From the NCBI RefSeq assembly GCF_014192055.1, contig NZ_JACHXM010000007.1, forward strand, positions 1 through 64,000: a stretch of DNA of 64,000 bases, in the 5' to 3' direction. The notes beneath the pieces are model-generated. The model was not told the DNA's origin, did not search any database, and was given only the letters and a program-made list of their open reading frames with translations. This document shows, piece after piece, positions 8,573-33,678 of the stretch. The position numbers and the translations under genes are program-made. Numbering within the stretch: the first letter of the stretch is position 1; each line of letters begins with the position of its first letter. Source of the DNA: Halomonas organivorans (GTDB taxonomy: Bacteria > Pseudomonadota > Gammaproteobacteria > Pseudomonadales > Halomonadaceae).

Positions 8573-11251
8573 TCACACCTCGAGCGGGTTGGGCTTGTTG
8601 GGGTCGATGCCATACTTCTCGATGGCCTCGCCAACGACCTTGCGATCGATCTCGCCGCGGTCGGCCAGCGCCTTGAGCGCAGCCACGGTGACGAAGTAGC
8701 GGTTGACCTCGAAGAAGTGACGCAGCTTCTCGCGGGTATCGGAGCGGCCGTAGCCGTCGGTCCCGAGTACATGGTAGTCGGTCGGCACCCAGGCGCGGAC
8801 CTGGTCGGCGAACAGCTTCATGTAATCGGTGGAGACGATGGCCGGGCCCTGGCGGCCCTCCAGGCAGGCGGTGACGTGGGGCTTGCCCGGTTCCTCGGTC
8901 GGCTTGAGGAACGCCTGGCGATCGATCTCCAGGGCCTCGCGACGCAGCTCGTTGAAGCTGGTGACGCTCCAGATGTCGGCGCCCACGCCCCACTCCTCGC
9001 TGAGCAGTTCGGCGGCAGCCTCGACCTCACGCAGGATGGTGCCGCAGCCCATCAACTGGACGCGCGCCTTCTTGCCTTCGGTCTCGCGCAGCAGGTACAT
9101 GCCCTTGATGATGTCGTCGGCAGGCACTTCCTCGAGGGCCGGCTGCTCGTAGTTCTCGTTCATCACCGTCAGGTAGTAGAAGCAGTTCTCCTTGTCGGCG
9201 AACATGCGCTTCAGACCGTCCTGGATAATGACCGCCACCTCGTGGGCATAGGTCGGATCATAGCTGCGGCAGTTGGGGATCATCGAGGCCTGGAGGTGGC
9301 TATGACCATCCTGGTGCTGCAGGCCCTCGCCGTTGAGGGTGGTGCGACCGGCGGTGCCGCCGACCAGGAAGCCACGAGCCTGCATGTCGCCGGCGGCCCA
9401 GGCCAGGTCACCGATGCGCTGGAAGCCGAACATCGAGTAGTAGATGTAGAACGGCAGCAGCGGCAGCCCGTGGTTGCTGTAGGAGGTGGCAGCGGCGATC
9501 CACGAGGACATGGCGCCCGCCTCGGTGATGCCCTCTTCGAGCACCTGGCCGGCCTTGTCCTCGCGATAGAACATCAGCTGGCCCTTGTCCATGGGCTCGT
9601 ACTTCTGGCCCTCGGAGGTATAGATGCCGAGCTGGCGGAACATGCCTTCCATGCCGAAGGTACGCGCCTCGTCGGGCACGATCGGCACTACCTGCTTGCC
9701 GAAGCCCTTGTGCTTGACCAGGCCGGTCAGGATGCGCACGAAGGCCATGGTGGTGGAGACTTCACGCCCCTTGGAACCGCCGGTCTGGGAAGAGAATATC
9801 TTGTCGTCGAGGCCCGGGATGTCCAGTGCCTGGAAGTCCGGGTTACGCGCCGGCAGGTAGCCACCCAGGCGCTCGCGCTGGAGATGCATGTACTTCATCT
9901 CAGGCGAGTCGTCCGACGGCTTGTAGTACGGCATCTCGTTCTCGATCGCCTCGTCGGACACCGGAATGCCGAAGCGGTCGCGGAACTTCTTCAACACGTC
10001 CTGATCGTCGATCGACTTGACCTGGTGGGCCTCGTTGTCGGCCTCACCGCCGGCGGCGCCCAACCCATAGCCCTTGACGGTATGCGCCAGGATCACGGTG
10101 GGACGGCCGTTGGCATTGTGGAAGGCCTCATGATAGGCCGCATAGACCTTGAACGGGTCGTGGCCGCCGCGATTGAGCTTCCAGATGTCCTCGTCGGACA
10201 GGTCCTCGACCATCTTGGCGGTCTCGGGATACTTGCCGAAGAAGTGCTCGCGAGTATAAGCGCCACCGTTGGCCTTGCAGTTCTGGTACTCGCCGTCGAC
10301 GGTCTCGTCCATCAGCTTCTGCAGGACGCCCTTGTTGTCCTTCTCGAACAGCGGATCCCACAGGCGGCCCCAGACCACCTTGATGACGTTCCAGCCGGCG
10401 CCGCGGAACACGCCCTCGAGCTCGTCCATGATCCGCGAGTTGCCGCGCACCGGACCGTCGAGACGCTGCAGGTTGCAGTTGATGACGAAATTGAGGTTGT
10501 CGAGCTTCTCGCGGCTGGCCAGGTGAATGGCCCCCAGCGTCTCGGGCTCGTCACACTCGCCGTCGCCCAGGAAGGCCCAGACCTTGCGGTCGTGCATGGG
10601 CTGCAGGCCACGCTGATCCAGGTACTTCATGACGTGGGCCTGATAGATCGCCATGATCGGGCCCAGGCCCATGGACACGGTCGGCAGCTGCCAGTAGTCC
10701 GGCATCAGCCAGGGGTGCGGATAGGACGACAGGCCGTCACCGTCCACCTCCTGGCGGTACTTGTCCATCTGATCTTCGGTGAGGCGGCCTTCCAGGAAGG
10801 AGCGTGCATAGATGCCCGGCGAGCTGTGGCCCTGGATGAACACCAGGTCGCCCTGGAAGTCGCCGTTGGCCGCGCGGAAGAAGTGGTTGAAGCCCACGTC
10901 ATAGAGTGTCGCCGAGGACATGAAGCTGGCCAGGTGACCGCCGATGCCCTTGTTCGCCTTGTTGGCGCGGGTGACCATGGCGGCCATGTTCCAGCGGATC
11001 AGCGAGCGGATGCGACGTTCCATGAAGAGATCGCCCGGCATCGGCGCCTCGCGGTGCACCGGAATGGTGTTGCGATGCGGCGTCGTGACCGAGAAAGGTA
11101 CCTGCATACCGTCGCGGCGGTAGCGATCCGCCAGGCGAGTCATCAGGTACCGGGCGCGTTCCTCGCCCTCGTGATCCAGAACCGATTCCAGGGAATCCAG
11201 CCATTCCTGGGTTTCGACCGGATCGAGATCTTCTCTTGTCTCAAGACTCAT
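8573..11251 (-). CDS. aceE: Pyruvate dehydrogenase E1 component, homodimeric type
   Basis: Thiamine-diphosphate-dependent decarboxylase that passes the acetyl group to AceF, 892 residues (E. coli 887). The ThDP motif GDGECDEPET...NCN is clear near residues 230-262, and the family N-terminus SLETREDLDPVETQEWLDSL is present. The start at 11251 was chosen because GGAGAG lies 8 bases upstream. The frame stays open for 34 further codons with no second ribosome site I trust. It is the first gene of the aceE-aceF operon and has a 341-base leader and intergenic region upstream. Confidence 0.97.
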   Translation of the reverse strand: MSLETREDLDPVETQEWLDSLESVLDHEGEERARYLMTRLADRYRRDGMQVPFSVTTPHRNTIPVHREAPMPGDLFMERRIRSLIRWNMAAMVTRANKANKGIGGHLASFMSSATLYDVGFNHFFRAANGDFQGDLVFIQGHSSPGIYARSFLEGRLTEDQMDKYRQEVDGDGLSSYPHPWLMPDYWQLPTVSMGLGPIMAIYQAHVMKYLDQRGLQPMHDRKVWAFLGDGECDEPETLGAIHLASREKLDNLNFVINCNLQRLDGPVRGNSRIMDELEGVFRGAGWNVIKVVWGRLWDPLFEKDNKGVLQKLMDETVDGEYQNCKANGGAYTREHFFGKYPETAKMVEDLSDEDIWKLNRGGHDPFKVYAAYHEAFHNANGRPTVILAHTVKGYGLGAAGGEADNEAHQVKSIDDQDVLKKFRDRFGIPVSDEAIENEMPYYKPSDDSPEMKYMHLQRERLGGYLPARNPDFQALDIPGLDDKIFSSQTGGSKGREVSTTMAFVRILTGLVKHKGFGKQVVPIVPDEARTFGMEGMFRQLGIYTSEGQKYEPMDKGQLMFYREDKAGQVLEEGITEAGAMSSWIAAATSYSNHGLPLLPFYIYYSMFGFQRIGDLAWAAGDMQARGFLVGGTAGRTTLNGEGLQHQDGHSHLQASMIPNCRSYDPTYAHEVAVIIQDGLKRMFADKENCFYYLTVMNENYEQPALEEVPADDIIKGMYLLRETEGKKARVQLMGCGTILREVEAAAELLSEEWGVGADIWSVTSFNELRREALEIDRQAFLKPTEEPGKPHVTACLEGRQGPAIVSTDYMKLFADQVRAWVPTDYHVLGTDGYGRSDTREKLRHFFEVNRYFVTVAALKALADRGEIDRKVVGEAIEKYGIDPNKPNPLEV

Positions 11252-14489: not shown

Positions 14490-15350
14490 TCATGATACAC
14501 GGGCAGAATAGTCATCGATCGCCTTCTGGTACTGGCTGGGCGAGGCCCCGATATGGCGGCGAAAGAAGCGCGTGAAGTGGCCCTGCTCAGAAAATCCCAA
14601 GGTTTCAGACAAGTTACCCAGGGTGCCGGAGCGATTGTCGGATAGACCGCGAAACGCCATCTGCATCTTGCCGATATTGGCAAACATCTGCGGCGTCATG
14701 CCGGTGTTCTTCTTGAACAGGGTAAAGAAATGTGCGCGGGAAAGGCCGCACTGGCGGGCAATGCCCTCCATGTCGAGTTCCCCCTGGGGGTGGTCGAGGA
14801 TGAACTGGCTTGCCTGGCGAATTCTTGCATCGTAGAAGTCGCTGGCAACCCCCACCCTCAGCCTGGCCAAGTGGCGCCAGTCGGAATGTTTCTCGGTGAT
14901 GCCGATCATCAAATCACAAAGCAACTCTTCCAGCCTGTCCTGAGGCACCAGACCGAAACAGAACATGGCGTCGACCAGCAGGTCGGCATGGTGTCGCATG
15001 CGAGGCGAGAGTTCGATGCAGGGGGTGGAGAAGAAATCGGGTCGGCCACTTAATGCCAATCCCCGCTGCAAGGCCGCCAACCAACTCGGCTCGATATACA
15101 GCGCCAGGATCAGGGTATCGGCGGCACCACGCTGGTGGTCGTAGAAGTGAGGCTCCCAGGCGTTGATAAGCACCGCCGTCCTGTTGGTCAGCGGCAACCT
15201 GCGGTCACGCACCGAGAAGTAGGTATCCTCTCCGGAGACCTTGAGCAGTACATGGCATTCGGAATGGGCGTGGGGCACCAGCGAGTCGTCCATGTCCAGC
15301 AGGGCAACGCGACCAAACTCGCCATGCAAAATGCGATGGGCACTCGACAT
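14490..15350 (-). CDS. AraC-family transcriptional regulator, probable regulator of the furoate cluster
   Basis: A 286-residue regulator. The N-terminal half is cupin-like (HAHSECHVLLKVSGED). The C-terminal part (about 190-286) is an AraC double helix-turn-helix, with ARQCGLSRAHFFTLFKKNTG and LGFSEQGHFTRFFRRHIGASPSQYQ. The ATG at 15350 is preceded by GAGGAC. It is the last gene of the minus-strand catabolic cluster, 137 bases after xdhC, and could have its own promoter there. Its role as furoate-responsive activator is inferred from position only; the family usually senses small molecules through the cupin domain. Confidence 0.85.
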   Translation of the reverse strand: MSSAHRILHGEFGRVALLDMDDSLVPHAHSECHVLLKVSGEDTYFSVRDRRLPLTNRTAVLINAWEPHFYDHQRGAADTLILALYIEPSWLAALQRGLALSGRPDFFSTPCIELSPRMRHHADLLVDAMFCFGLVPQDRLEELLCDLMIGITEKHSDWRHLARLRVGVASDFYDARIRQASQFILDHPQGELDMEGIARQCGLSRAHFFTLFKKNTGMTPQMFANIGKMQMAFRGLSDNRSGTLGNLSETLGFSEQGHFTRFFRRHIGASPSQYQKAIDDYSARVS

Positions 15351-15487
15351 GACGTCCTCGTCAGTAGAATTGTAGGGTTGCTGGTTTAAGCCAGCGTACC
15401 ATCTCTTCTCAGCCCCCCGGTCACAGCCAGACCAAAGTCGCACAATGAGCGGCCTGGCCTGCCGCCAATGCCAAGGCAACGACGCCG

Positions 15488-16462
15488 TCAGAGCGCATCA
15501 CGCGATTTCCCGTGGTAGACCCGTACGATATCCGCTACCACGGCCAGGGCGATCTCGGCCGGGGTCTTGCTGCCAATGGCGAGGCCGATAGGCATATGGA
15601 TCCGCTCGATCTCTACCTGGGACAGCCCTCCCGAGCGCATCAGCCGTGTGGCACGGGCATCCGAGGTCCGCTGTGAACCCATCACGCCGATGTAGAAGGC
15701 CTCAGTACGCACCGCCTCGATCATCGCCAGATCGTCGAGGCGAGGATCATGGGTCAGGGCCACCACGGCCGTCGCGGCATGGCATCCCCCCGCCGCGATG
15801 TAGGCCGAAGGCAATTGCGGTACAACCGTCACGCTCTCGACGTGGAACCCTTCGCGTGCCTCCGCGCGGGGGTCACAAACGATGACCTCATGACCCAACA
15901 TCTTGGCGAAGCCGGCACAGGCCTCGGCCACCGGCGAGATGCCGGCCAGCAGCAAGCGCAACACGGGCCCGATACGGATGTCGACCGCCCCGGGGTGCCG
16001 TGCCACGCTCGGCCCTCCAGGCTCCTCATCATTATCGGCCCGAATGGTGCCGGACTCGAGATCGACCCGACGCTTCAGCCGGCGCTGTCCCGACAGAGCC
16101 AGTTGCAGCGCCTCGAGATGCGCCAGCCAGGCATCGTCGGCAGCGTGGTGCTCGATCAGCACCTCCAGTACCCCACCACAGGGCAGGGCGAGGCGTCGGC
16201 TCTCCTCGCGACTTTCGCCGTAGCGACGAAGGGTCACCGGTCGCTTGAAGTCGCCGGCGACGACTTCCTCGAGGAAGGCCTCCTCGACACAGCCACCGGA
16301 TAGCGAGCCGACATACTGACCGTCGCGACGCGCCACTAGCATGGAGCCCGGCCCACGGGGCGCCGAGCCATAGGTCGAGAGCACGGTGCATAGCCAGATG
16401 GGGTGGCCATCACGGACCCAGGCCAGCGCCTGGGTGATCACCTGGGTATCGAGGTCGTGCAT
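15488..16462 (-). CDS. XdhC/CoxI-family molybdenum hydroxylase maturation factor
   Basis: XdhC-family proteins bind molybdenum cofactor and help insert its sulfurated form into xanthine-dehydrogenase-type enzymes. The 324-residue protein has the N-terminal XdhC_CoxI signature LSTYGSAPRGPGSMLV...GSLSGGCVE and a C-terminal Rossmann-like domain (about 165 onward) with VICDPR-type and IGVMGS segments. The ATG at 16462 is preferred over a GTG seven codons upstream because GGAGGGGGGAG precedes it. It lies 26 bases after the transporter and presumably serves the molybdoenzyme encoded at 20161-24504. Confidence 0.9.
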   Translation of the reverse strand: MHDLDTQVITQALAWVRDGHPIWLCTVLSTYGSAPRGPGSMLVARRDGQYVGSLSGGCVEEAFLEEVVAGDFKRPVTLRRYGESREESRRLALPCGGVLEVLIEHHAADDAWLAHLEALQLALSGQRRLKRRVDLESGTIRADNDEEPGGPSVARHPGAVDIRIGPVLRLLLAGISPVAEACAGFAKMLGHEVIVCDPRAEAREGFHVESVTVVPQLPSAYIAAGGCHAATAVVALTHDPRLDDLAMIEAVRTEAFYIGVMGSQRTSDARATRLMRSGGLSQVEIERIHMPIGLAIGSKTPAEIALAVVADIVRVYHGKSRDAL

Positions 16463-16488
16463 CACTCCCCCCTCCTGCTCCACCGCTC

Positions 16489-17766
16489 TCAGTCTGCGAC
16501 CTGGGTCTTCTCTGCCTCGGGATCGAGCGTCTTCTCGCCCAGTAGCAGGGAGACCGCAATCCCACAGACCAGTGCCCAGAAAGGAGCGCTGATTCCCAGC
16601 AGGGTGATGTTACTCATCGCCACCACCAGCGCCACAAAGGCACCGATCTGATGGCCACGATGTCGGGAGAAGGCATGCTGAAAGGCCGCCAACAGCACGC
16701 CGATCATCGCCAGGCCGGCCACGCTGCCGATCAGGGCGCTGGGCAACGCCAGGATGACGGGCACCGCCGCACCGGCAAACAGGCCGAAGGCACAGAACAG
16801 CACGCCGTTCACCAGGGTGGCACCATAGCGCGCACTCTTGTCATCGCCGGCCTGCTCGGAGGAGCAGATGGCCGTCATTGGTCCGGCGATGTTGGCGTTA
16901 TGCCCACCGAGGAGTCCCGCGAGCATGCCGCCGATACCGCTGATGATGGTCATGGCATTGACCGGGGGACGGTAAGACTCGGCCAGCAGCACCCCGGTGG
17001 CCTGGGCATTCTCGGCCCCGATCACTAGTGCTGCCAGCGGTACGGAGATCGCCAGGAAGGCCCCCAGAGTAAAGCTCGGTGCGGTGAACTGCGGCGCGAC
17101 GAAGGCGATATCCACGTCGGCGGGTTGCACGGCGCCCATCGCCACCGCGACGCCGAGGCCGACCACCGCCGCCACCAGCATCGGTGGCACCACCTTGATG
17201 AAGCGCGAGCTGAGGAAGAAGGTCACCACCGCCGTACCGGCGATCCACGGGGCTGCGCCCACCGAGTTCACCGCGCCGATGCCGAAGCGGATCAAGGCGC
17301 CAGCGATCATCGCCATGACGATGGGCATCGGCAGCCAGCGCATGATGCGCCCGACTACCCCGCTCACGCCTAGCGCCAGCACGATCGCCCCGCTCATGAT
17401 GAAGGCGCCGACCGCCTCGCTGAAGGGAATCGTCGCCAGGGCGGTGATCATGATCGCCGCCCCGGGAATCGAGTAGGCGCCGGTGATCGGCTGACGATAG
17501 CGCAAGGCCATGATCAGGCTGATCAGGCCACCCAGGAAGTAGATGGCGAACAGCCAGGCCACGGTCTGGCCATTGCTCAGGTTGCCGGCCTCGGCGGCAC
17601 TGATCACGATCAGCGCCGGCCCCGAGCAACCGAACAGCGCCGCGACGATGCCCGCGCTGATCGACTTGGCGGTGAAGGCCCGTCCCAGGTCCTCCAATAG
17701 TAGGCGTTTGCTGGAGGGAGTGGCCGCTGACGTGGGGCCTGCCCGATTATCGTCGTGTACTTGCAT
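16489..17766 (-). CDS. BenE-family transporter, probable furoate importer
   Basis: A 425-residue inner-membrane protein with about 11-12 hydrophobic segments. It has the BenE (benzoate:H+ symporter) layout, including LLGGHNANIAGPMTAICSSE around residues 286-305 and the early PALIVISAAEAGNLS segment. BenE proteins carry aromatic carboxylates. The location inside a furoyl-CoA pathway operon (42 bases after the hydrolase gene, 26 before xdhC) suggests 2-furoate, a small heteroaromatic carboxylate, as substrate. That substrate is inferred. Confidence 0.82.
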   Translation of the reverse strand: MQVHDDNRAGPTSAATPSSKRLLLEDLGRAFTAKSISAGIVAALFGCSGPALIVISAAEAGNLSNGQTVAWLFAIYFLGGLISLIMALRYRQPITGAYSIPGAAIMITALATIPFSEAVGAFIMSGAIVLALGVSGVVGRIMRWLPMPIVMAMIAGALIRFGIGAVNSVGAAPWIAGTAVVTFFLSSRFIKVVPPMLVAAVVGLGVAVAMGAVQPADVDIAFVAPQFTAPSFTLGAFLAISVPLAALVIGAENAQATGVLLAESYRPPVNAMTIISGIGGMLAGLLGGHNANIAGPMTAICSSEQAGDDKSARYGATLVNGVLFCAFGLFAGAAVPVILALPSALIGSVAGLAMIGVLLAAFQHAFSRHRGHQIGAFVALVVAMSNITLLGISAPFWALVCGIAVSLLLGEKTLDPEAEKTQVAD

Positions 17767-17808
17767 GCGATATCTCCAAGAGGTTGTTGTTGTATCACGG
17801 ACCGACGA

Positions 17809-18612
17809 TCACTCTCCGGTGAACACGGCCTTGCGCTTGCCATGGAAGGCTTCGACACCTTCACGGAAGTCGCGGGAGGAGCGCAGCCGGCTGTAGCAGT
17901 GGCCTTCCATCTCGATCGCCACCGAAAGCGGCGCATCCTCGTTGTCGTTGATCAGGCGCTTGGCGGTGCGCTGGGCAAGCGGCGAGAAGCCACGCAGTTC
18001 ATCCACCAGGGCCTGGGTGGCACTTTCGAGTTGATCGTCGGGGACGCACTCGGTGGCGATACCCCATTCCAGCGCTTGGTGACCGCTAATACGTTTGGCG
18101 CGCATCACCATGTGCTTGGTACGGGCGATGCCGATGATCTTCTGCAATCGGGCCGAGCCACCGGACCCAGGGATCTGTCCCAGTTTCTGCTCCGGCAGCG
18201 CGTAGAGCGTGGTCTCGGAGGCGATGCGGAAATCGCAGGCCAGCGACAGTTCGAAGCCGACGCCGAAGGTGTAGCCACGGTTGGCGACGATCACCGGCTT
18301 CGAGCAGCGCGCGGGAGCGGCCACGTTGTCGGCAAGCTTCGAGACATGCTCCGGTGAGGCCTCGAGGAACCCCTTGATGTCGCCGCCGCTGGAGAAGTGC
18401 TCGCCCTCGGCACGCAGCACGATCACACGCACGCCGTCATGTGCATCCAGCGCCTCGAACACGCGGCGCAACTCGTCGCGCTGGGGCATCGAGATCACGT
18501 TGAGCGGTGGATGGCCGAGGATGATGTCGGCACGCTCGGCCTCGGCGTCGACCTGGACCCTGAAGCCGTCGAAGTCGCTGGCCAGGATGGTGTTCACGTC
18601 GGTGATAGTCAT
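17809..18612 (-). CDS. hmfE: Crotonase-family hydrolase, probable 2-oxoglutaryl-CoA hydrolase
   Basis: A 267-residue enoyl-CoA hydratase/isomerase-fold protein. The oxyanion-hole segments are visible: EGEHFSSGGDIKGF (about 70-83) and NRGYTFGVGFELSLACDFRIA. In the 2-furoate pathway HmfE acts last, releasing CoA from 2-oxoglutaryl-CoA formed after ring opening. The position directly after the CoA ligase (26 bases) matches hmfD-hmfE order. From the sequence alone it could equally be a hydratase or isomerase; the assignment depends on context. Confidence 0.7.
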   Translation of the reverse strand: MTITDVNTILASDFDGFRVQVDAEAERADIILGHPPLNVISMPQRDELRRVFEALDAHDGVRVIVLRAEGEHFSSGGDIKGFLEASPEHVSKLADNVAAPARCSKPVIVANRGYTFGVGFELSLACDFRIASETTLYALPEQKLGQIPGSGGSARLQKIIGIARTKHMVMRAKRISGHQALEWGIATECVPDDQLESATQALVDELRGFSPLAQRTAKRLINDNEDAPLSVAIEMEGHCYSRLRSSRDFREGVEAFHGKRKAVFTGE

Positions 18613-18638
18613 GTCTTGGTTCCTTGTCGGTTTGCTGA

Positions 18639-20168
18639 TTAGTGGGGTTGTGCGCTGGGGGTATCCTGTGCGCGCAGCACGCGGCGCAGGATCTTGCCCA
18701 CCGGGGACTTGGGAATCTCGTCGACGAAGACGTAGCGCCGCGGGCGCTTGAAGCGCGCCAGGCCGGAATCGACGCAGTGCCGGTCGAGTTCGCCCTCGTC
18801 GATGGCTTGCCGGGCTTTGACGAAGGCGGTGACCACCTCACCCCACTGCTCGTCGGCCAGCCCCACCACCACGACCTCTTCCACCTGAGGGTGCACCGAG
18901 AGCACATTCTCGATCTCCACCGGGCTGACGTTCTCGCCGCCGGTGATGATCAGATCATCGACCCGGCCGGTGACGAAGAGGTCGCCATCGGCGTCGAAGT
19001 AACCGGTGTCGCTGGTGAAGTACCAGCCCTCCTTGAGCGCCTTGCGGTCGGCATCGGGGCGGTGCCAGTAGCCCTGGAAGGCCTCGTCGCCGGCCATATC
19101 GGCGATGATTTCGCCCTCTTCCCCCACGCCCAGGATCTCGTCCGGCGACTCGGCGCCCACCCGGACCACCCGGATGCGTTGGTTGAGCGCAGGCCGACCC
19201 GATGACCCCGGCTTGTCACTGGTCCGCTGGTCGATGGTGAAGGTATAGATCTCGGAGCTGCCGTAGTGGTTGACGAACAGGCTGGGCTTAAAGGCTTCCT
19301 GAACACGGGCCATCAGCCCCGCACTCATCGGCGCGCCGGCGAAGCCCAGCTTGTCGACGCTGGCTACCCGTGATGGCGAGAACTCGGGGTGCTCGATGAG
19401 CATGTGATACAGGGTCGGCACCAGATAGAGGTTGGTGACGCCCTCACGCTCGATGGCGTCCAGCGTTGCCGCAGGATCGAACTTCGGCACGCAGACGAAG
19501 TGGCCGTCGATCAGCGCCATCGACAGCAGCGAGCGCACGCCCATGGTGTGATAGAGCGGCATCACGCCGAGGGTGCACTCGTCATGGCGATAGAGGTTCT
19601 GGGCCACATGGGCCAGCGCTGCGGTGCGCTCGGCGCGATGCAAGCGTGGCACGCCCTTGGGCTTGCCGCTGGTGCCCGAGGTGTAAAGCATCAGCGAGAC
19701 ATCCTCGGCGCCGGCACGTAGCACCAGCTCACCTTCCACACCGAGCAGGGCGTCGAAGTCATGAGCGCCGATGTCCTCGACCTCTCCGGCAATGATGCGC
19801 GGCAGCCGCTGCGCCTCGGGACAGCTGTTCACCGCTTCGGCCACCGAAGCGTCATAGGCGACTGCCTTGACCTCGGCATCCTCGATGCAGTAACTCAGAT
19901 CCCGGGCCGTGGATCGCCAGTTGAGGGGGGTGACCACGATCCCGGCGAACTGGCAGGCCCAGTGCAGGGTCGCCATCTGCCAGCGATTCTGCATCACCAC
20001 CAGCAGGCGATCCCCCTTGGCCAGGCCAATCGCCTCAAGGCTCCTGGCGACACTCTGGATATCGGCGAACCACTCGGCATAGGTCTTGCGAAACTCGCCA
20101 TCGGACATGGCGATCGCCCGAGGGCGACGTTCCACCGAGGCAAGAAAACTGCGACCAAGATCAAACAT
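18639..20168 (-). CDS. hmfD: AMP-dependent acyl-CoA ligase, probable 2-furoyl-CoA synthetase
   Basis: A 509-residue ANL-superfamily ligase that would activate 2-furoate with ATP and CoA. The P-loop-like motif LYTSGTSGKPKGVPRLH (about 158-174), the NHYGSSEIYTF motif, the TGRVDDLIITGGENVSP hinge and the C-terminal SPVGKILRR lysine loop are all present. The longer open frame upstream is ignored: the ATG at 20168 overlaps the stop of the 2Fe-2S gene by 8 bases and gives a normal N-terminus. Related ligases use benzoates, so the substrate call rests on the neighbouring hydroxylase and hydrolase. Confidence 0.75.
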   Translation of the reverse strand: MFDLGRSFLASVERRPRAIAMSDGEFRKTYAEWFADIQSVARSLEAIGLAKGDRLLVVMQNRWQMATLHWACQFAGIVVTPLNWRSTARDLSYCIEDAEVKAVAYDASVAEAVNSCPEAQRLPRIIAGEVEDIGAHDFDALLGVEGELVLRAGAEDVSLMLYTSGTSGKPKGVPRLHRAERTAALAHVAQNLYRHDECTLGVMPLYHTMGVRSLLSMALIDGHFVCVPKFDPAATLDAIEREGVTNLYLVPTLYHMLIEHPEFSPSRVASVDKLGFAGAPMSAGLMARVQEAFKPSLFVNHYGSSEIYTFTIDQRTSDKPGSSGRPALNQRIRVVRVGAESPDEILGVGEEGEIIADMAGDEAFQGYWHRPDADRKALKEGWYFTSDTGYFDADGDLFVTGRVDDLIITGGENVSPVEIENVLSVHPQVEEVVVVGLADEQWGEVVTAFVKARQAIDEGELDRHCVDSGLARFKRPRRYVFVDEIPKSPVGKILRRVLRAQDTPSAQPH

Positions 20169-20688
20169 CGTTGTTCTCCAGTTGACTGTCGGGCACGGCC
20201 GCCTCGCGGCGCGTCCGAGCCACTTCGAGTACCGCCTGGACCATGCCGGTATAGCCGGTGCAACGGCACAGATGACCCGACAGCATGTCGCGCACCTGGG
20301 CCTCGCTGGGGTCGGCCACACGGTCCAGGAACTCCTCGCAGGACATCAGAATGCCTGCGGTGCAGAAGCCGCACTGCAGGGCGTGATGACGCCGGAACGC
20401 CTGTTGCAGATCGGAAAGGCCCTCCTCTCCTGCCAGCGACTCGACGGTGTCGAGCCGCCGCCCCTCGGCCTGTACCGCGAGCATCAGGCAGCTGCGGCTG
20501 GCGCGACTATCGACGCGCACCGTGCAGGCCCCGCACACGCCGTGCTCGCACCCCACGTGCGTGCCGGTGGCCCCCAGTTCGTGGCGCAGGAAGTCACACA
20601 GCTGGGTACGGGGCTCGGCGTAGCCGCTGCGCTCGCGGCCATTGAGAGTCAGGGTCACGCGAATGCGCTGGTCAGCCTTGGCGTGCAT
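20161..20688 (-). CDS. hmfC: Molybdenum hydroxylase 2Fe-2S subunit, probable 2-furoyl-CoA dehydrogenase small subunit
   Basis: A 175-residue subunit with two [2Fe-2S] clusters. The N-terminal plant-ferredoxin-type domain has GCEHGVCGACTV plus a later Cys. The C-terminal helical domain has CGFCTAGI and CRCTGY, the arrangement of xanthine dehydrogenase/CODH small subunits. It relays electrons from the molybdenum site to FAD. The ATG at 20688 has GAGGAGAT upstream and starts inside the 3' end of the FAD-subunit gene (17-base overlap). Its stop overlaps the ligase start by 8 bases. Confidence 0.85.
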   Translation of the reverse strand: MHAKADQRIRVTLTLNGRERSGYAEPRTQLCDFLRHELGATGTHVGCEHGVCGACTVRVDSRASRSCLMLAVQAEGRRLDTVESLAGEEGLSDLQQAFRRHHALQCGFCTAGILMSCEEFLDRVADPSEAQVRDMLSGHLCRCTGYTGMVQAVLEVARTRREAAVPDSQLENNDV

Positions 20689-21517
20689 GGGCGATCTCCT
20701 CGTCACCTGGCCCACCGGCGATCAACTGCCGGCCGAGCTCACGGATCAACTGGCGGCGATAGGCCGCCGTGGCATGGGCATCGTCCTCGGCGCCCAAGGA
20801 CCAGGCGAGGGTGTTTAGGGCCTCACCCGGGTCCTCGTGGCGGGCGAGCTCGCGACACACTGGACGGTCGGCGACGCCGCCCACGCCGAGGACGACTCGG
20901 TCGCTGTCGACCACCCCCGCCAGCGCGACGATTGCGAAATCGCCATGGCGCATGGCCACTTCCTGGAAGCGGTACTCCGCGTCCGGCCTCGCCAGGGGGA
21001 AACGCACCTCGGTGATCAGCTCGTCCTGACGGCGATCGGTGGTCAGTACGCCCTGGAAGAAGTCTCGGGCCAGGACTCGGCGCGACTTGCCGCGTCGGTT
21101 CTCGAGCACCACCTCACCACCCAGGGTGGCCAGACACAGCGGCAACTCGGCGCTGGGATCGGCGTGGGCGATCGAACCGCATACCGTGCCGCGGTTACGG
21201 GTCTGCCAATGGCCGATCCAGGGCATTGCCTGCGCCAGCAACGGGACCGCTTCGGCGAGGCCGAGGTACTCGAGTAGTTCGGCCTGAGTCACCCCGGCGC
21301 CCACCGCTAGATGATCGTCACGCCGCTCGATGTAGTGCAGGTCCTCGATACCGGCGATATCGATCAGCCACTTAGGCTGCGCCAGGCGCATGTTGAGCAC
21401 CGCCATCAGCGACTGCCCCCCGGCGATCAGTCGAGCATCGTCCCCGGCCTCATGCAGTCGTTCGCAGGCCTCGCGACGGCTTGACGGGCGCAGATAATCG
21501 AAAGCAGCAGGTTTCAT
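20672..21517 (-). CDS. hmfB: Molybdenum hydroxylase FAD subunit, probable 2-furoyl-CoA dehydrogenase medium subunit
   Basis: A 281-residue CoxM/XdhB-type FAD protein. The two FAD-binding signatures are visible: AGGQSLMAVLNMRLAQP (about 32-48) and TRNRGTVCGSIAHADPSAELP (about 106-126). The ATG at 21517 overlaps the large-subunit stop by four bases (ATGA) and is preceded by GGGGAGGT, so translation is probably coupled. Electrons from the iron-sulfur subunit would leave here; the final acceptor is unknown. Confidence 0.83.
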   Translation of the reverse strand: MKPAAFDYLRPSSRREACERLHEAGDDARLIAGGQSLMAVLNMRLAQPKWLIDIAGIEDLHYIERRDDHLAVGAGVTQAELLEYLGLAEAVPLLAQAMPWIGHWQTRNRGTVCGSIAHADPSAELPLCLATLGGEVVLENRRGKSRRVLARDFFQGVLTTDRRQDELITEVRFPLARPDAEYRFQEVAMRHGDFAIVALAGVVDSDRVVLGVGGVADRPVCRELARHEDPGEALNTLAWSLGAEDDAHATAAYRRQLIRELGRQLIAGGPGDEEIAHARQG

Positions 21518-24504
21518 GAGCGACCTCCCCGGCCGGTGAGCAGGATCTTGAGGCGCTGCCACAGCGACGGCCGTGGTGCGGCGCCGCCCATGCGCTGGGC
21601 CAGGCGCGCGAAAATCTGGCCAATGATCATCCTCGAGGCGCTTTGCAGCATGCGCCCGCCCACCGAGGCAACCTTGCCGCCCACGGTGGCGTCGTAGTCA
21701 TAGTCGAGTCGCGTCTGGCCGCCCTCGATCTCGGTCAGCCGAATCCGCGCACTGCCCTCTGCCGAGCCCATGGCGCTGGTGCCGGCCCCGGAGAGCCGCA
21801 GGCCGTGCGGGGGGTCGAGGTCGGAGAGCGCCACCCGCGCATCGAAACGCGCCCGGATCATCCCCACGCCGACGGTGACATCGGCGCGGTAGGCGTTCTC
21901 GCCGGTAAGTTCCAAGGCATGGCAGCCAGGAATGATCGCCTGCAGGGTCTCGGGATCGAGCAGGGTGTCGAAGACCGCCTGAGGGCTGCCCGGCAGCGTC
22001 ACCGAGTCGCTGGCGGTGAGCCGCGAGCCGCCACCGGCTGCGGGCGCCATCTGATCCTCGCCCACTCCTTGGGGCCGCGGAGGCTCCTCGATGCCGATCA
22101 GAGTGCGCACCTTGGACGGCGTCAGCGGCAGCTCGATGTCCGCGATACCCAGCGCGTCGGCCACGGCATTGGCGATGCACACCGGGGTGCTCATGTTGTT
22201 GCCCTCGCCGACCCCCTTGGCACCCAGCGGGGTGAACGGCGACGGCGTCTCCCTGTGCAGGATCAGTGGTTCAGGCACCTCGACGCTGGTCGGGACCAGG
22301 TAGTCGGCGAAGGTGCCGGATTGGAAGCTGCCATCGTCGCCGTAGGCAAACTCCTCCATCAGTGCCGCACCGAGTCCCTGAGCGAAGGCTCCGCGCACCT
22401 GGCCATCGACCAGGTCCGGATTGAGCAGGCGGCCGGCGTCATGCAGGGTGACGTAACGATCGAGGGTCACCCTGCCGGTGATGCGGTCGACCTCCACGCC
22501 GCAGTAGTCGAAGATGAAGCCGTAGCAGAGCGAGCTGTTGATACGATCGTCATCGTCCGGCGCTTCGAGCTGAGGCGGCGACCAGAAGGCCGTCTCGCGC
22601 AACCCGCCCGGCTCGCCCTCGGGCAGGGTGCCCGGCGCCCAGTGCGTGGCGCCGGCCAGGCGGCCGAAGGGCATCGTCAACTCGCTACCGTCCACCCTCA
22701 CCTGTCCTTCGGCGAAGCGGATGCGTGCGGCCTCCACCTGCCACTGGGCGGCGGCGATGCCGGCCAGGCGATCGCGCACCTTCATCGCCGCCTGGTAGAC
22801 GGCGCCGGCCACGGCGCCGGAGAAGCGGCTGGAGTAGTTGCCCGAGGCGATCGACCAGGCATCCTTGCCGGTATCGAGCTCGACGTTGACGCGGATCGAC
22901 TCCAGCGGCACCCCGAGCACCTCGGCGATCACCTGGGCGACCACAGTGCGGTGCCCCTGCCCTTGGGGTGTCGAGGAGACATGGGCGCTGACGTCGCCTA
23001 GCGGACCGACGCTGATCGTGGCGGTGCTTACCGCCCCGTTCTTGGGGCCGGCCTTGCGCCGTTCCTCGGGCGTCATGGCGGTGGTGATGTAGCCCATGTT
23101 GGAGATCGACGGCTCCACCGCCACGGTGTAGCCGATGCCGTAGAGTCGACCTCCACGTCGTGCTGCATCGCGGCGCGCCAACAGCTCGTCCAACCCGCCG
23201 TCACGAACGCCTTGCTCTACCGAGGCGGGATAGTCGCCTGAGTCGAGCAACGCCCCGGCCGCGGCACGGTAGGGGAAGCTCCCGGACGGCACCAGGTTGC
23301 GGCGGATCACCTCGAGAGGGTCCAGCTCGAGCTCCACGGCGATGCGCTGCATCAGCCGCTCGAGGGCGAAGTAAATCTGGGGGCCACCGAAGCCACGGTT
23401 GAGGCCGGTGGGCGTCTTGTTGGTCAGCGCCACCCGGTTGCGCACCTGGAGATGTTCGATGGCGTAGGCACCTGTCAGGTTGCCGTGCATGCGATAGAAA
23501 GTCGCCGGCTCCGGTGCCCGCAGGTAAGCGCCACAGTCATCGATCTGGTCCCAACGCATCGCGGTGACCCGGCCATCACCGGTCACCGCCGCCTCGATCT
23601 CGGTGACGCGATTGGTGGCCGAGGAGGCCCCCTGGAGATGCTCGAGACGATCCTCCACCCACTTGACCGGAGCGCCTGCCTTGCGCGCGGCCAGGCCCAT
23701 CATCACCACATAGGGGAAGACCCCCTGCTTGATGCCGAAGCTGCCACCGGAGTCCGGTGGGGTGCGCAAGCGAAGACGGTTGCCGGGCACATTGAGTGCA
23801 CGTGCCATCACCGAGTGCAGTGCGTAGGGGCCCTGAAAGTTGGAGAGCACGTCATAACTGGCACTGGCCGGTTCATACTCGGCGAGGACTGCATAGCACT
23901 CCATCGGCGTGCAGGAGCTGCGCGGCACGCATACCTTGAGCGAGACCCGATGCTCGGCCTCGGCAAAGGCCCGCTCGGGATCGCCATAGCGGAAGTGGCG
24001 CTCGCTGACCACGTTGCTTCCCACTGACTCGTGGAGCAGTGGAGCGTCTTCGGCGACGGCCATTTCGGTGTCCACCGCGACAGGCAAGATCTCGTACTCG
24101 ACGCGTATGGCCTCCAGGGCATCCTCGGCAAGGTAACGGCTCTCGGCCATCACAACGGCAACCGGCTCGCCGACATGGCGCACCTTGTCGACCGCCAGGC
24201 ACCAGTGCTCCATGGGCTGGCGCACACCAACCGGAAACGGCCGCGCCCAGCGCTTGATGTCTTCTCCGGTGAGCACCTCGTGCACGCCACTCATGGCCAG
24301 CGCGGCTGACGCATCCACCTGGAGCAGGCGTGCATGGGCATGGGGCGAGCGCAATACCGCGGCGTGCAGAGTGCCTGGCGCCACCGCCAGGTCGTCGGCA
24401 TATCGGCCGTGCCCACGCAGCAGAGCATCGTCCTCGACACGCTGCTGCCGCCGGCCAATCCGGCCCGACTGCCCCTCCCATCTGGTCGGCTCGAAAGTGT
24501 TCAT
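21514..24504 (-). CDS. hmfA: Molybdenum hydroxylase large subunit fused to a CoxG-like domain, probable 2-furoyl-CoA dehydrogenase large subunit
   Basis: This 996-residue molybdopterin subunit would hydroxylate the furan ring of 2-furoyl-CoA at C5. Residues 1 to about 780 are a xanthine-dehydrogenase-type large subunit, with GRYADDL near 34, PPDSGGSFG, and GLNRGFGGPQ in place of the CODH AYRCSFR active-site loop. The final ~170 residues form a separate SRPBCC/CoxG domain (VTLPGSPQAVFDTLLDPE onward), usually a stand-alone maturation or membrane-anchoring protein in CODH clusters. It is the first gene of the operon, with GGAGAGGTG before the ATG. The motifs rule out CO dehydrogenase, but a different aromatic acyl-CoA substrate remains possible. 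Confidence 0.78.
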   Translation of the reverse strand: MNTFEPTRWEGQSGRIGRRQQRVEDDALLRGHGRYADDLAVAPGTLHAAVLRSPHAHARLLQVDASAALAMSGVHEVLTGEDIKRWARPFPVGVRQPMEHWCLAVDKVRHVGEPVAVVMAESRYLAEDALEAIRVEYEILPVAVDTEMAVAEDAPLLHESVGSNVVSERHFRYGDPERAFAEAEHRVSLKVCVPRSSCTPMECYAVLAEYEPASASYDVLSNFQGPYALHSVMARALNVPGNRLRLRTPPDSGGSFGIKQGVFPYVVMMGLAARKAGAPVKWVEDRLEHLQGASSATNRVTEIEAAVTGDGRVTAMRWDQIDDCGAYLRAPEPATFYRMHGNLTGAYAIEHLQVRNRVALTNKTPTGLNRGFGGPQIYFALERLMQRIAVELELDPLEVIRRNLVPSGSFPYRAAAGALLDSGDYPASVEQGVRDGGLDELLARRDAARRGGRLYGIGYTVAVEPSISNMGYITTAMTPEERRKAGPKNGAVSTATISVGPLGDVSAHVSSTPQGQGHRTVVAQVIAEVLGVPLESIRVNVELDTGKDAWSIASGNYSSRFSGAVAGAVYQAAMKVRDRLAGIAAAQWQVEAARIRFAEGQVRVDGSELTMPFGRLAGATHWAPGTLPEGEPGGLRETAFWSPPQLEAPDDDDRINSSLCYGFIFDYCGVEVDRITGRVTLDRYVTLHDAGRLLNPDLVDGQVRGAFAQGLGAALMEEFAYGDDGSFQSGTFADYLVPTSVEVPEPLILHRETPSPFTPLGAKGVGEGNNMSTPVCIANAVADALGIADIELPLTPSKVRTLIGIEEPPRPQGVGEDQMAPAAGGGSRLTASDSVTLPGSPQAVFDTLLDPETLQAIIPGCHALELTGENAYRADVTVGVGMIRARFDARVALSDLDPPHGLRLSGAGTSAMGSAEGSARIRLTEIEGGQTRLDYDYDATVGGKVASVGGRMLQSASRMIIGQIFARLAQRMGGAAPRPSLWQRLKILLTGRGGRS

Positions 24505-24691
24505 TCACCTCTCCACGATGGCCTTGTCGGATTCGGTTGCCATCTGGAGAGGAGTCTAAGGAGCTATGCATCACTCGGCCTTGCCCGACGGGCTGGAGTT
24601 TGGCCCGAGCATCGGCTGATTTACCCGAGAGTCTGAATTGCGACCAAAGAATAAGAGGCTGGAACCGGCCTGCAGACACCGTCAGAACGCA

Positions 24692-24751: not shown

Positions 24752-25465
24752 TCAGTCGAAGTCGACGCCGATCCGCTTGCCCACTTCTTCATAGGCCTCG
24801 ATCACGCCGCCCAGGCCCTGGCGGAAGCGATCCTTGTCGAGCTTCTCGCGGGTCTCGGCGTCCCACAGGCGACAGCCATCCGGGGAGAATTCGTCACCCA
24901 GCACGATCTGGCCCTTGAACAGTCCGAACTCGAGCTTGTAGTCGACCAGCAGCAGGTTGCCGTCGGCGAACAGTTGCTTGAGCACCTCGTTGACCTTGAA
25001 GGTCAGCGCCTTCATCTCGGCCAACTGCTCCGGCGTCGCCCAGCCGAAGGTCTCGGCCAGGGATTCGTTGATCATCGGATCGTGGAGGGCGTCGTTCTTG
25101 AGGAACAGCTCGAAGGTCGGCGGATTGAGCTCGCTGCCCTCCTCCACGCCGAGGCGCTTGACCAGGCCCCCGGCAGCGATGTTACGCACCACGCACTCCA
25201 CCGGCAGCATGTCCATGTTCTTGACCACGCATTCGGTATCGGAGCGCAGTCCCTCGAAGTGGGTCGGGATGCCCGCGGCCTCGAGCTTGCCCATGATGAA
25301 GGCGTTGAAGCGGTTGTTGACCTTGCCCTTGCGCGCCAGCGACTCCATGCGCTCGCCGTCGAAGGCGCTGGTGTCATCGCGGAAGTGCAGGATCAGGCGA
25401 TCCGGGTCGTCGGTGGCGAAGACGGACTTGGCCTTGCCGGCGTAGAGTTCTTGACGCTTTTCCAT
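24752..25465 (-). CDS. purC: SAICAR synthase (phosphoribosylaminoimidazole-succinocarboxamide synthase)
   Basis: Joins CAIR and aspartate using ATP in purine synthesis; 237 residues, same as E. coli. Family features are [15 protein letters not shown] at residues 6-20, [24 protein letters not shown], and LVDYKLEFG...[14 protein letters not shown]. It follows the metallo-hydrolase gene by 42 bases, at the end of the conserved dapA-bamC-MBL-purC run. Confidence 0.97.
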
Positions 25466-33485: not shown

Positions 33486-33561
33486 TGGTGGGTCGTGTAG
33501 GATTCGAACCTACGACCAATTGGTTAAAAGCCAACTGCTCTACCAACTGAGCTAACGACCC
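33486..33561 (-). tRNA. tRNA-Lys (anticodon TTT), downstream copy
   Basis: A 76-base cloverleaf including encoded CCA. Acceptor arms are GGGTCGT/ACGACCC, the D-arm contains AGCTCAGTTGGTAGAGC, the anticodon loop CTTTTAA has TTT, and the T-arm contains GTTCGAATC. Sequence is identical to the copy at 33603-33678. Confidence 0.97.
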
Positions 33562-33602
33562 GTGATGCATGGCGGCTCAGTCGCCATGAATCCAGGTTCG
33601 GA

Positions 33603-33678
33603 TGGTGGGTCGTGTAGGATTCGAACCTACGACCAATTGGTTAAAAGCCAACTGCTCTACCAACTGAGCTAACGACCC
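33603..33678 (-). tRNA. tRNA-Lys (anticodon TTT), promoter-proximal copy
   Basis: A 76-base tRNA with encoded CCA, identical to the following copy and separated from it by 41 bases. Both are transcribed from the promoter at 33695-33723 and end at the terminator at 33447-33480. Confidence 0.97.

Follow-up and report, generated by a model that had tools for sequence, protein, structure and literature searches.

Halomonas organivorans carries, in a 64,000-nucleotide stretch (hereafter the window; contig NZ_JACHXM010000007.1), a compact gene cluster predicted to break down 2-furoate, preceded by a conserved, operator-like array. Eight genes lie on the minus strand, and open reading frames with Pfam and NCBIfam matches confirmed the domain content and the hmfABCDE order that a preliminary description of this DNA had proposed. 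The large molybdenum, flavin adenine dinucleotide (FAD), and 2Fe-2S subunits of the predicted 2-furoyl-coenzyme A (CoA) dehydrogenase are encoded by hmfA (21514–24504, 996 amino acids; PF02738, PF20256, PF01315, PF06240), hmfB (20672–21517; PF00941), and hmfC (20161–20688; PF01799, PF00111). They are followed by hmfD (18639–20168; PF00501, PF13193), encoding an AMP-binding, putative 2-furoate–CoA ligase, and hmfE (17809–18612; PF00378), encoding a crotonase-fold protein that would act as 2-oxoglutaroyl-CoA hydrolase. A benE-type transporter gene, probably for furoate uptake (16489–17766; PF03594, and TIGR00843 above its cut-off), xdhC/psfD for a molybdenum cofactor maturation factor (15488–16462; PF13478, PF02625), and the cluster's araC-type regulator gene (14490–15350; PF12833, PF02311) complete the set. 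Gene starts were assigned from ATG positions and relatives; that of araC was re-assigned and is probably 15350, rather than a TTG at 15479. With these likely starts, three joints overlap (hmfA/B by 4, hmfB/C by 17, and hmfC/D by 8 bases), three span 26–42 bases (hmfD/E 26, hmfE/benE 42, benE/xdhC 26), and xdhC/araC alone is longer (137 bases), so that the joints were correctly described as mostly overlapping or shorter than 45 bases. The extent first given, 14490–24504, holds for the genes but omits the promoter and operator region (24505–24660), which is part of the system.

The closest published counterpart, in Pseudomonas pseudoalcaligenes CECT 5344, has the same relative order: the available parts of PMC6678421 (2019) describe hmfABCDE, benE downstream, psfD (an XdhC-type maturation factor), and araC. 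An evolved CECT 5344 mutant uses furfuryl alcohol, furfural, and furoate for growth, and disruption of araC led to loss of growth on furfural (PMC6678421). The evolved strain regained a conserved arginine in AraC, at a position written both as 261 and as L262R (PMC6678421); AraC of the window also has Arg261. The available part of PMC12064950 assigns the same functions to the hmf/psf genes of Pseudomonas umsongensis GO16. HmfA–E of CECT 5344 and Cupriavidus basilensis HMF14 are 64, 59, 77, 61, and 80% identical, respectively (PMC6678421). For these two strains, P. oleovorans DSM 1045 (L067) and Cupriavidus necator NH9 (L085) served as stand-ins; between them, HmfA–E are 64, 59, 76, 61, and 81% identical. 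Because the stand-ins reproduce the published cross-identities within one point, orthology of HmfA–E was accepted. The window proteins are 77, 70, 79, 72, and 83% identical to HmfA–E of L067 and 63, 57, 80, 62, and 76% to those of L085; BenE, XdhC, and AraC share 74, 63, and 57% identity with L067. The comparison with characterized HmfA–E, made through these proxies, thus gave 57–83% identity and brought up no homologues acting on another acyl-CoA. These orthologue-level matches, together with a gene order published for the furoate-grown CECT 5344, support the furoate interpretation put forward in the preliminary description.

An unbroken hmfA-B-C-D-E run was found in 72 of 84 loci (L005–L088; L069, counted among the 72, is in broken pieces), and because of this contiguity the arrangement is not attributed to chance. 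Six of the other 12 loci (L019, L022, L073, L074, L080, and L084) have only hmfA, hmfA–C, or nothing above thresholds, on stretches that are mostly short or cut. In four (L056, L057, L060, and L063) hmfE comes roughly 5 kb later, and two have no hmfE in the stretch (L020 and L023, the latter also without hmfD). The nearest named relatives of HmfA come from Billgrantia and Halomonas records (88–94% identity). At 1e-90, HmfE finds a match in 23 of 201 family genomes, among them the 4.8-Mb genome of H. organivorans itself; the furoate trait is therefore patchy in the family.

Residue-level conservation bears on the type of molybdenum enzyme. Among solved structures, CoxL and quinoline 2-oxidoreductase come closest to the large subunit, its best NCBIfam match is an aerobic carbon monoxide dehydrogenase model (below the cut-off), and a CoxG domain is fused to the HmfA C-terminus (residues 840–972). 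An enzyme of the CO dehydrogenase or quinoline-oxidoreductase type with unrelated neighbors would account for these resemblances, but we give this reading almost no credence and reject it on the active-site loop and the neighboring genes. The HmfA loop reads TGLNRGFGGPQ (residues 366–376) and lacks the CysSerPheArg loop, which we take as the mark of aerobic CO dehydrogenase. RGFGG (370–374) is kept, with one F-to-Y exception, in 83 aligned rows, after exclusion of rows below 50% identity or under the coverage limits, as is Glu767. CoA ligase and crotonase-fold genes also come directly next in those 72 of 84 loci. The alignment with the Cupriavidus protein (L085) covers the CoxG domain too, and in six HmfA homologues from alphaproteobacterial metagenome-assembled genomes the match ends at residues 803–811. 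In HmfE, Glu121 and Glu141 are invariant across 76 aligned rows; we take them to correspond to the catalytic glutamate pair of enoyl-CoA hydratase. Their invariance therefore makes a hydratase-like HmfE step possible, and HmfE might possibly open the ring itself.

Taken together, we put at about 0.87 the probability that these genes form an inducible operon for 2-furoate catabolism, with an AraC-family activator acting on tandem half-sites. BenE would import furoate, and HmfD would convert it to 2-furoyl-CoA. XdhC/PsfD would mature the molybdenum hydroxylase HmfABC, which would then hydroxylate ring carbon 5 of 2-furoyl-CoA. The lactone tautomer would open either spontaneously or through an activity without an assigned gene, after which HmfE would convert 2-oxoglutaroyl-CoA to 2-oxoglutarate, which enters the tricarboxylic acid cycle. 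The HmfD, HmfABC, and HmfE steps are taken from papers on relatives. The effector of the AraC-family protein is likely furoate or an early intermediate, and the protein would bind the half-sites that recur every 20 bases ahead of hmfA. This analysis itself established which genes are present and in what order, their orthology and key residues, and the conserved element with its spacing and its joint occurrence with the regulator; the need for AraC comes from papers on relatives, and the electron acceptor is inferred.

Calling the cluster self-contained, as had been done, goes too far: no gene is assigned to ring opening, a mocA-like gene is a remnant, and searches of the genome yielded no orthologue of HmfF or HmfH. 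A search of the genome with C. necator HmfF gave one partial match (34% identity) and no orthologue. HmfH matched in four places, with 38–40% identity over the N-terminal half and 43–54% over short C-terminal pieces; we read these proteins as generic GMC oxidoreductases, with no orthologue among them. The full upper pathway for 5-hydroxymethylfurfural (hmfFGH) was rejected, as neither HmfF nor HmfH has an orthologue in this genome. The idea that ring opening requires the alpha/beta hydrolase gene hyd was likewise rejected. A P. migulae protein, which we equated with the hyd product, has matches in 19 of the 84 loci, always on the opposite strand and in Pseudomonas-titled loci (that of L078 being a fragment), and its best match in the genome of H. 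organivorans is only 34% identical. Between xdhC and araC, 10 of 12 close halomonad loci (L005–L013 and L061) carry a mocA-like gene for a molybdopterin nucleotidyltransferase. The corresponding joint of the window (15351–15487, minus strand), compared by eye with L008 and L005, retains the beginning of this gene beside the downstream flank. L052 and L054 also lack the gene, with differing joint sequences. A 49% identical mocA-like gene (G000:C2:145672–146256) lies on another contig of the genome, adjoining another molybdenum enzyme and XdhC. The genome holds two further molybdenum hydroxylase loci (L119, G000:C2; L120, G000:C11), one of them with its own XdhC and mocA-like gene.

Upstream of hmfA, on the minus strand, conservation marks out a candidate operator of three half-sites. 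Half-site 1 (ATTCAGACTCTCGGGTAAAT, 24619–24638) begins 134 bases upstream of the hmfA start. Candidate half-site 2 (24599–24618) follows at an exact 20-base step, and the weaker candidate half-site 3 (GGCAAGG, 24579–24598) overlaps the expected −35 position. A candidate −10 hexamer, TAGACT (24553–24558), has an offset of 80 relative to the start of half-site 1; a sigma-70 consensus scan found no promoter at hmfA and missed this hexamer. The conserved block first became visible on aligning 13 halomonad upstream regions. A first matrix drew on 12 halomonad blocks, including one (L005) with a wrong anchor; for later counts it was replaced by a consensus string. Applied to 72 other upstream regions, the matrix placed the block 96–151 bases before hmfA in 39 of the 40 best-scoring ones. 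For 39 of these 40, none of 100 simple letter shuffles scored as high, while L028 had one such shuffle. Sites with at most two mismatches to the consensus, AATCAGAC-N5-GGYAAAT, occur in 66 of the 84 upstream regions and in 3 of 5025 background segments 300 bases long (plus strand), a descriptive contrast since the consensus was derived from the same set. The window contains a single site at this limit, 24619–24638, with one mismatch (2 of 100 shuffles had a site). It is also the sole exact site of the pattern searched for in the 4.8-Mb genome, which has four more with two mismatches.

With a stricter pattern, 19 exact matches were found in the 201 family genomes, versus two for the reversed control. 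Fifteen of the 19 lie 6,026–6,071 bases (once 6,487) upstream of the HmfE match, i.e. at the hmfA promoter, by positions compared by hand and with some family genomes likely of the same species as discovery loci. The other four are not linked to hmfE, one of them in an hmf-carrying genome, and eight of the 23 hmf genomes have no linked exact match. Extra copies with one or two mismatches occur upstream of an hmfF-like gene in L012 (19788), upstream of xdhC in L039 (14457), just after araC in L065 (20139), and at 6205 in L005; they possibly reflect a wider regulon in other genera.

The spacing of the array was examined in 34 representatives (<70% identical over 140 bases) picked among the regions with the element; their classes were taken from record titles and general knowledge. 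Of the 11 positions of the half-site core, an average of 10.5 matched at offset 0 (by construction); at +20 the figure was 8.3, and at +40 it was 5.7. No further offset among the 121 exceeded 5.0, and the average over offsets other than 0 and +20 was 2.9. A third half-site was recognized in 26 of the 34 representatives, comprising 26 of 28 gammaproteobacteria and none of the six others (beta- and alphaproteobacteria). Among the three-site representatives, 13 of 26 show a −10-like pattern, always at offset 79–81. Among the eight without a third half-site, it lies at 60 in four (two of them also at 54) and at 80 in L005, and three have none. The −10 thus seems to shift by one 20-base module with half-site number. 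Activators of the AraC/XylS type typically bind tandem direct half-sites about 20–21 bases apart, the proximal one overlapping the −35. The array fits this layout in its 20-base steps and, judging from the −10-like hexamer, in its −35 overlap. Because the half-site closest to the hmfA start overlaps the −35, we propose that the AraC-family protein is a direct activator. Half-site 1 shares the two-part layout of the MarA/SoxS marsox box, whose consensus is given as AYnGCACnnWnnRYYAAAY in the available part of PMC3709825, and agrees by eye with 10 of its 14 specified positions. Unlike that box, the window has two or three half-sites in tandem, every 20 bases.

Occurrence of the element followed that of the regulator. 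AraC orthologues were counted locally at ≥34% identity over 60% of the length and elsewhere, for 45 genomes or records, at 1e-30. Twelve added plasmid loci brought the set to 96 upstream regions; L080 was dropped (no hmfA start), and L019, L022, and L134 were left out of the AraC tally. Allowing up to three mismatches, 68 of the 75 regions that have an AraC orthologue contain the element, as does one of the 18 that lack AraC (63/75 versus 1/18 at two mismatches and 71/75 versus 3/18 at four); Fisher's P is 3e-12, relatedness ignored. For 10 of the 18 AraC-negative regions the search covered the plasmid record only. Three of the AraC matches found elsewhere are interrupted by a stop codon, and one is split in two. 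Seven AraC-positive regions were missed. L040, L042, and L079 have four mismatches each, and in L135–L137 (Rhizobiaceae) the block reads TTTGAGACTCCTCGGTAAG(G/A), with an AraC 44–46% identical. In Halomonas alkalisoli (L010) the site lies further up, a duplicated hmfA piece (~8867–9462) sitting between the operator-like site and the full hmfA. L056 has the element, an AraC in its genome, and a LysR gene too. Pseudomonas mandelii RIT-562 (L020) carries the element and hmfA–D, with neither an HmfE in the locus nor an AraC match at 1e-30, perhaps a decaying cluster. Autoregulation of araC through the same element was rejected, as the 160 bases preceding araC hold no site either in the window or in four other loci.

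We read 24579–24638 as the operator of the cluster's AraC regulator. The element could instead be another promoter feature, such as a different regulator's site or a transcript leader element, which we regard as unlikely, though to be taken seriously: AraC binding is a prediction, L020 has the element without AraC, element and regulator may just share a common inheritance, and the counts take no account of relatedness. However, direct 20-base half-sites over the −35, similar to the MarA/SoxS box, suit an AraC/XylS protein, and Rfam reported nothing at its gathering threshold. In addition, at three mismatches the element is missing from the 10 plasmid clusters whose records show no AraC (nine of these clusters have a LysR gene), and in Rhizobiaceae it diverges along with AraC. 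With moderate confidence, we put forward the following proposal: the array is a furoate-responsive AraC-activator operator built of modular 20-base half-sites, with the −10 moving by one module, and it marks AraC-controlled furoate operons across classes, apart from LysR-controlled ones. As part of this proposal, the CoxG domain of HmfA, presumably with a role in such a hand-over, may pass electrons from furoyl-CoA oxidation to a membrane quinone.

Several observations weigh against this interpretation of cluster and element. No NCBIfam equivalog scored above its cut-off for HmfA–E, proxies stood in for the C. basilensis HMF14 sequences, and the sequence leaves room for analogue substrates such as thiophene- or pyrrole-2-carboxylate. 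At two or fewer mismatches, the genome has five element sites, and the reversed control gave four. L067, the stand-in for the laboratory-studied strain, has a weak copy (three mismatches), as do its relatives L037, L039, L040, and L042 (three to four), and P. mandelii L020 shows no AraC match at 1e-30. Class-wide, the element appeared in 10 of 369 genomes versus three for the reversed control, which shows that it also turns up by chance on its own, and none of the ten loci (~3 kb each) encodes hmf proteins. In that sample hmfA was found in two of 369 genomes at the limit used, the genome of H. organivorans included, whose own site the strict pattern misses; the site of the second (L150) is identical to that of L050 and hence no independent case. 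Enzymes acting mainly on thiophene-2-carboxylate, pyrrole-2-carboxylate, or a substituted furoate, with furoate incidental, would be compatible with a BenE-type carrier, which suits aromatic monocarboxylates generally, and ring-atom specificity cannot be fixed from sequence. Yet furoate supports growth of the published relative that shares this gene order (PMC6678421), and HmfC and HmfE are 76–83% identical to the proxies' proteins, which makes a different main substrate quite improbable.

Known furoate loci resemble the cluster to different degrees. In the available parts of PMC6678421, the CECT 5344 operon comprises eight locus tags (BN5_2298 to 2305) ahead of psfD and araC, two genes more than the window; its hmf locus is flanked by mobile elements, and no operator is described. 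C. basilensis HMF14 shares the five hmfABCDE enzymes in order and functions, as far as PMC6678421 and PMC12064950 are available. Its stand-in L085 differs in the adjoining genes, which are a LysR regulator, an MFS transporter, UbiD, UbiX, and GMC genes, whereas the window has BenE and AraC. P. umsongensis GO16 shares a lower pathway by hmfA–E, psfD, and araC; the available part of PMC12064950 also lists hyd, hmfF, hmfI, hmfT, psfA, psfB, psfC, and psfG. Across L005–L088, L127–L138, and the window, the transporter type adjoining hmfABCDE is BenE in 42 of 96, MFS in 25, and neither in 29, many stretches ending early. The cluster's upstream neighbor is a SAICAR synthetase gene (24752–25465) without relation to the furoate pathway, and the window further contains two tandem tRNA-Lys (TTT) genes (33486–33678, minus strand).

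The operon itself is an ordinary one for furoate and already has a published equivalent; found in a genome near Billgrantia/Halomonas, it adds a halomonad host to the known furoate pathway. Furoate arises as a by-product when plant biomass is processed, and halomonads attract interest as organisms to grow on pretreated biomass that is saline. The new part is the cis element, together with a rule, based on half-sites, for predicting AraC control among furoate clusters. The array is well conserved and operator-like, and the accessible portions of the literature searched contain no description of it or of the regulator's operator. The element, a switch-like sequence that distantly related bacteria with the same furoate genes have in common, offers a small candidate furoate-inducible promoter and, if the proposal is true, element and AraC regulator together would form a ready-made furoate sensor.

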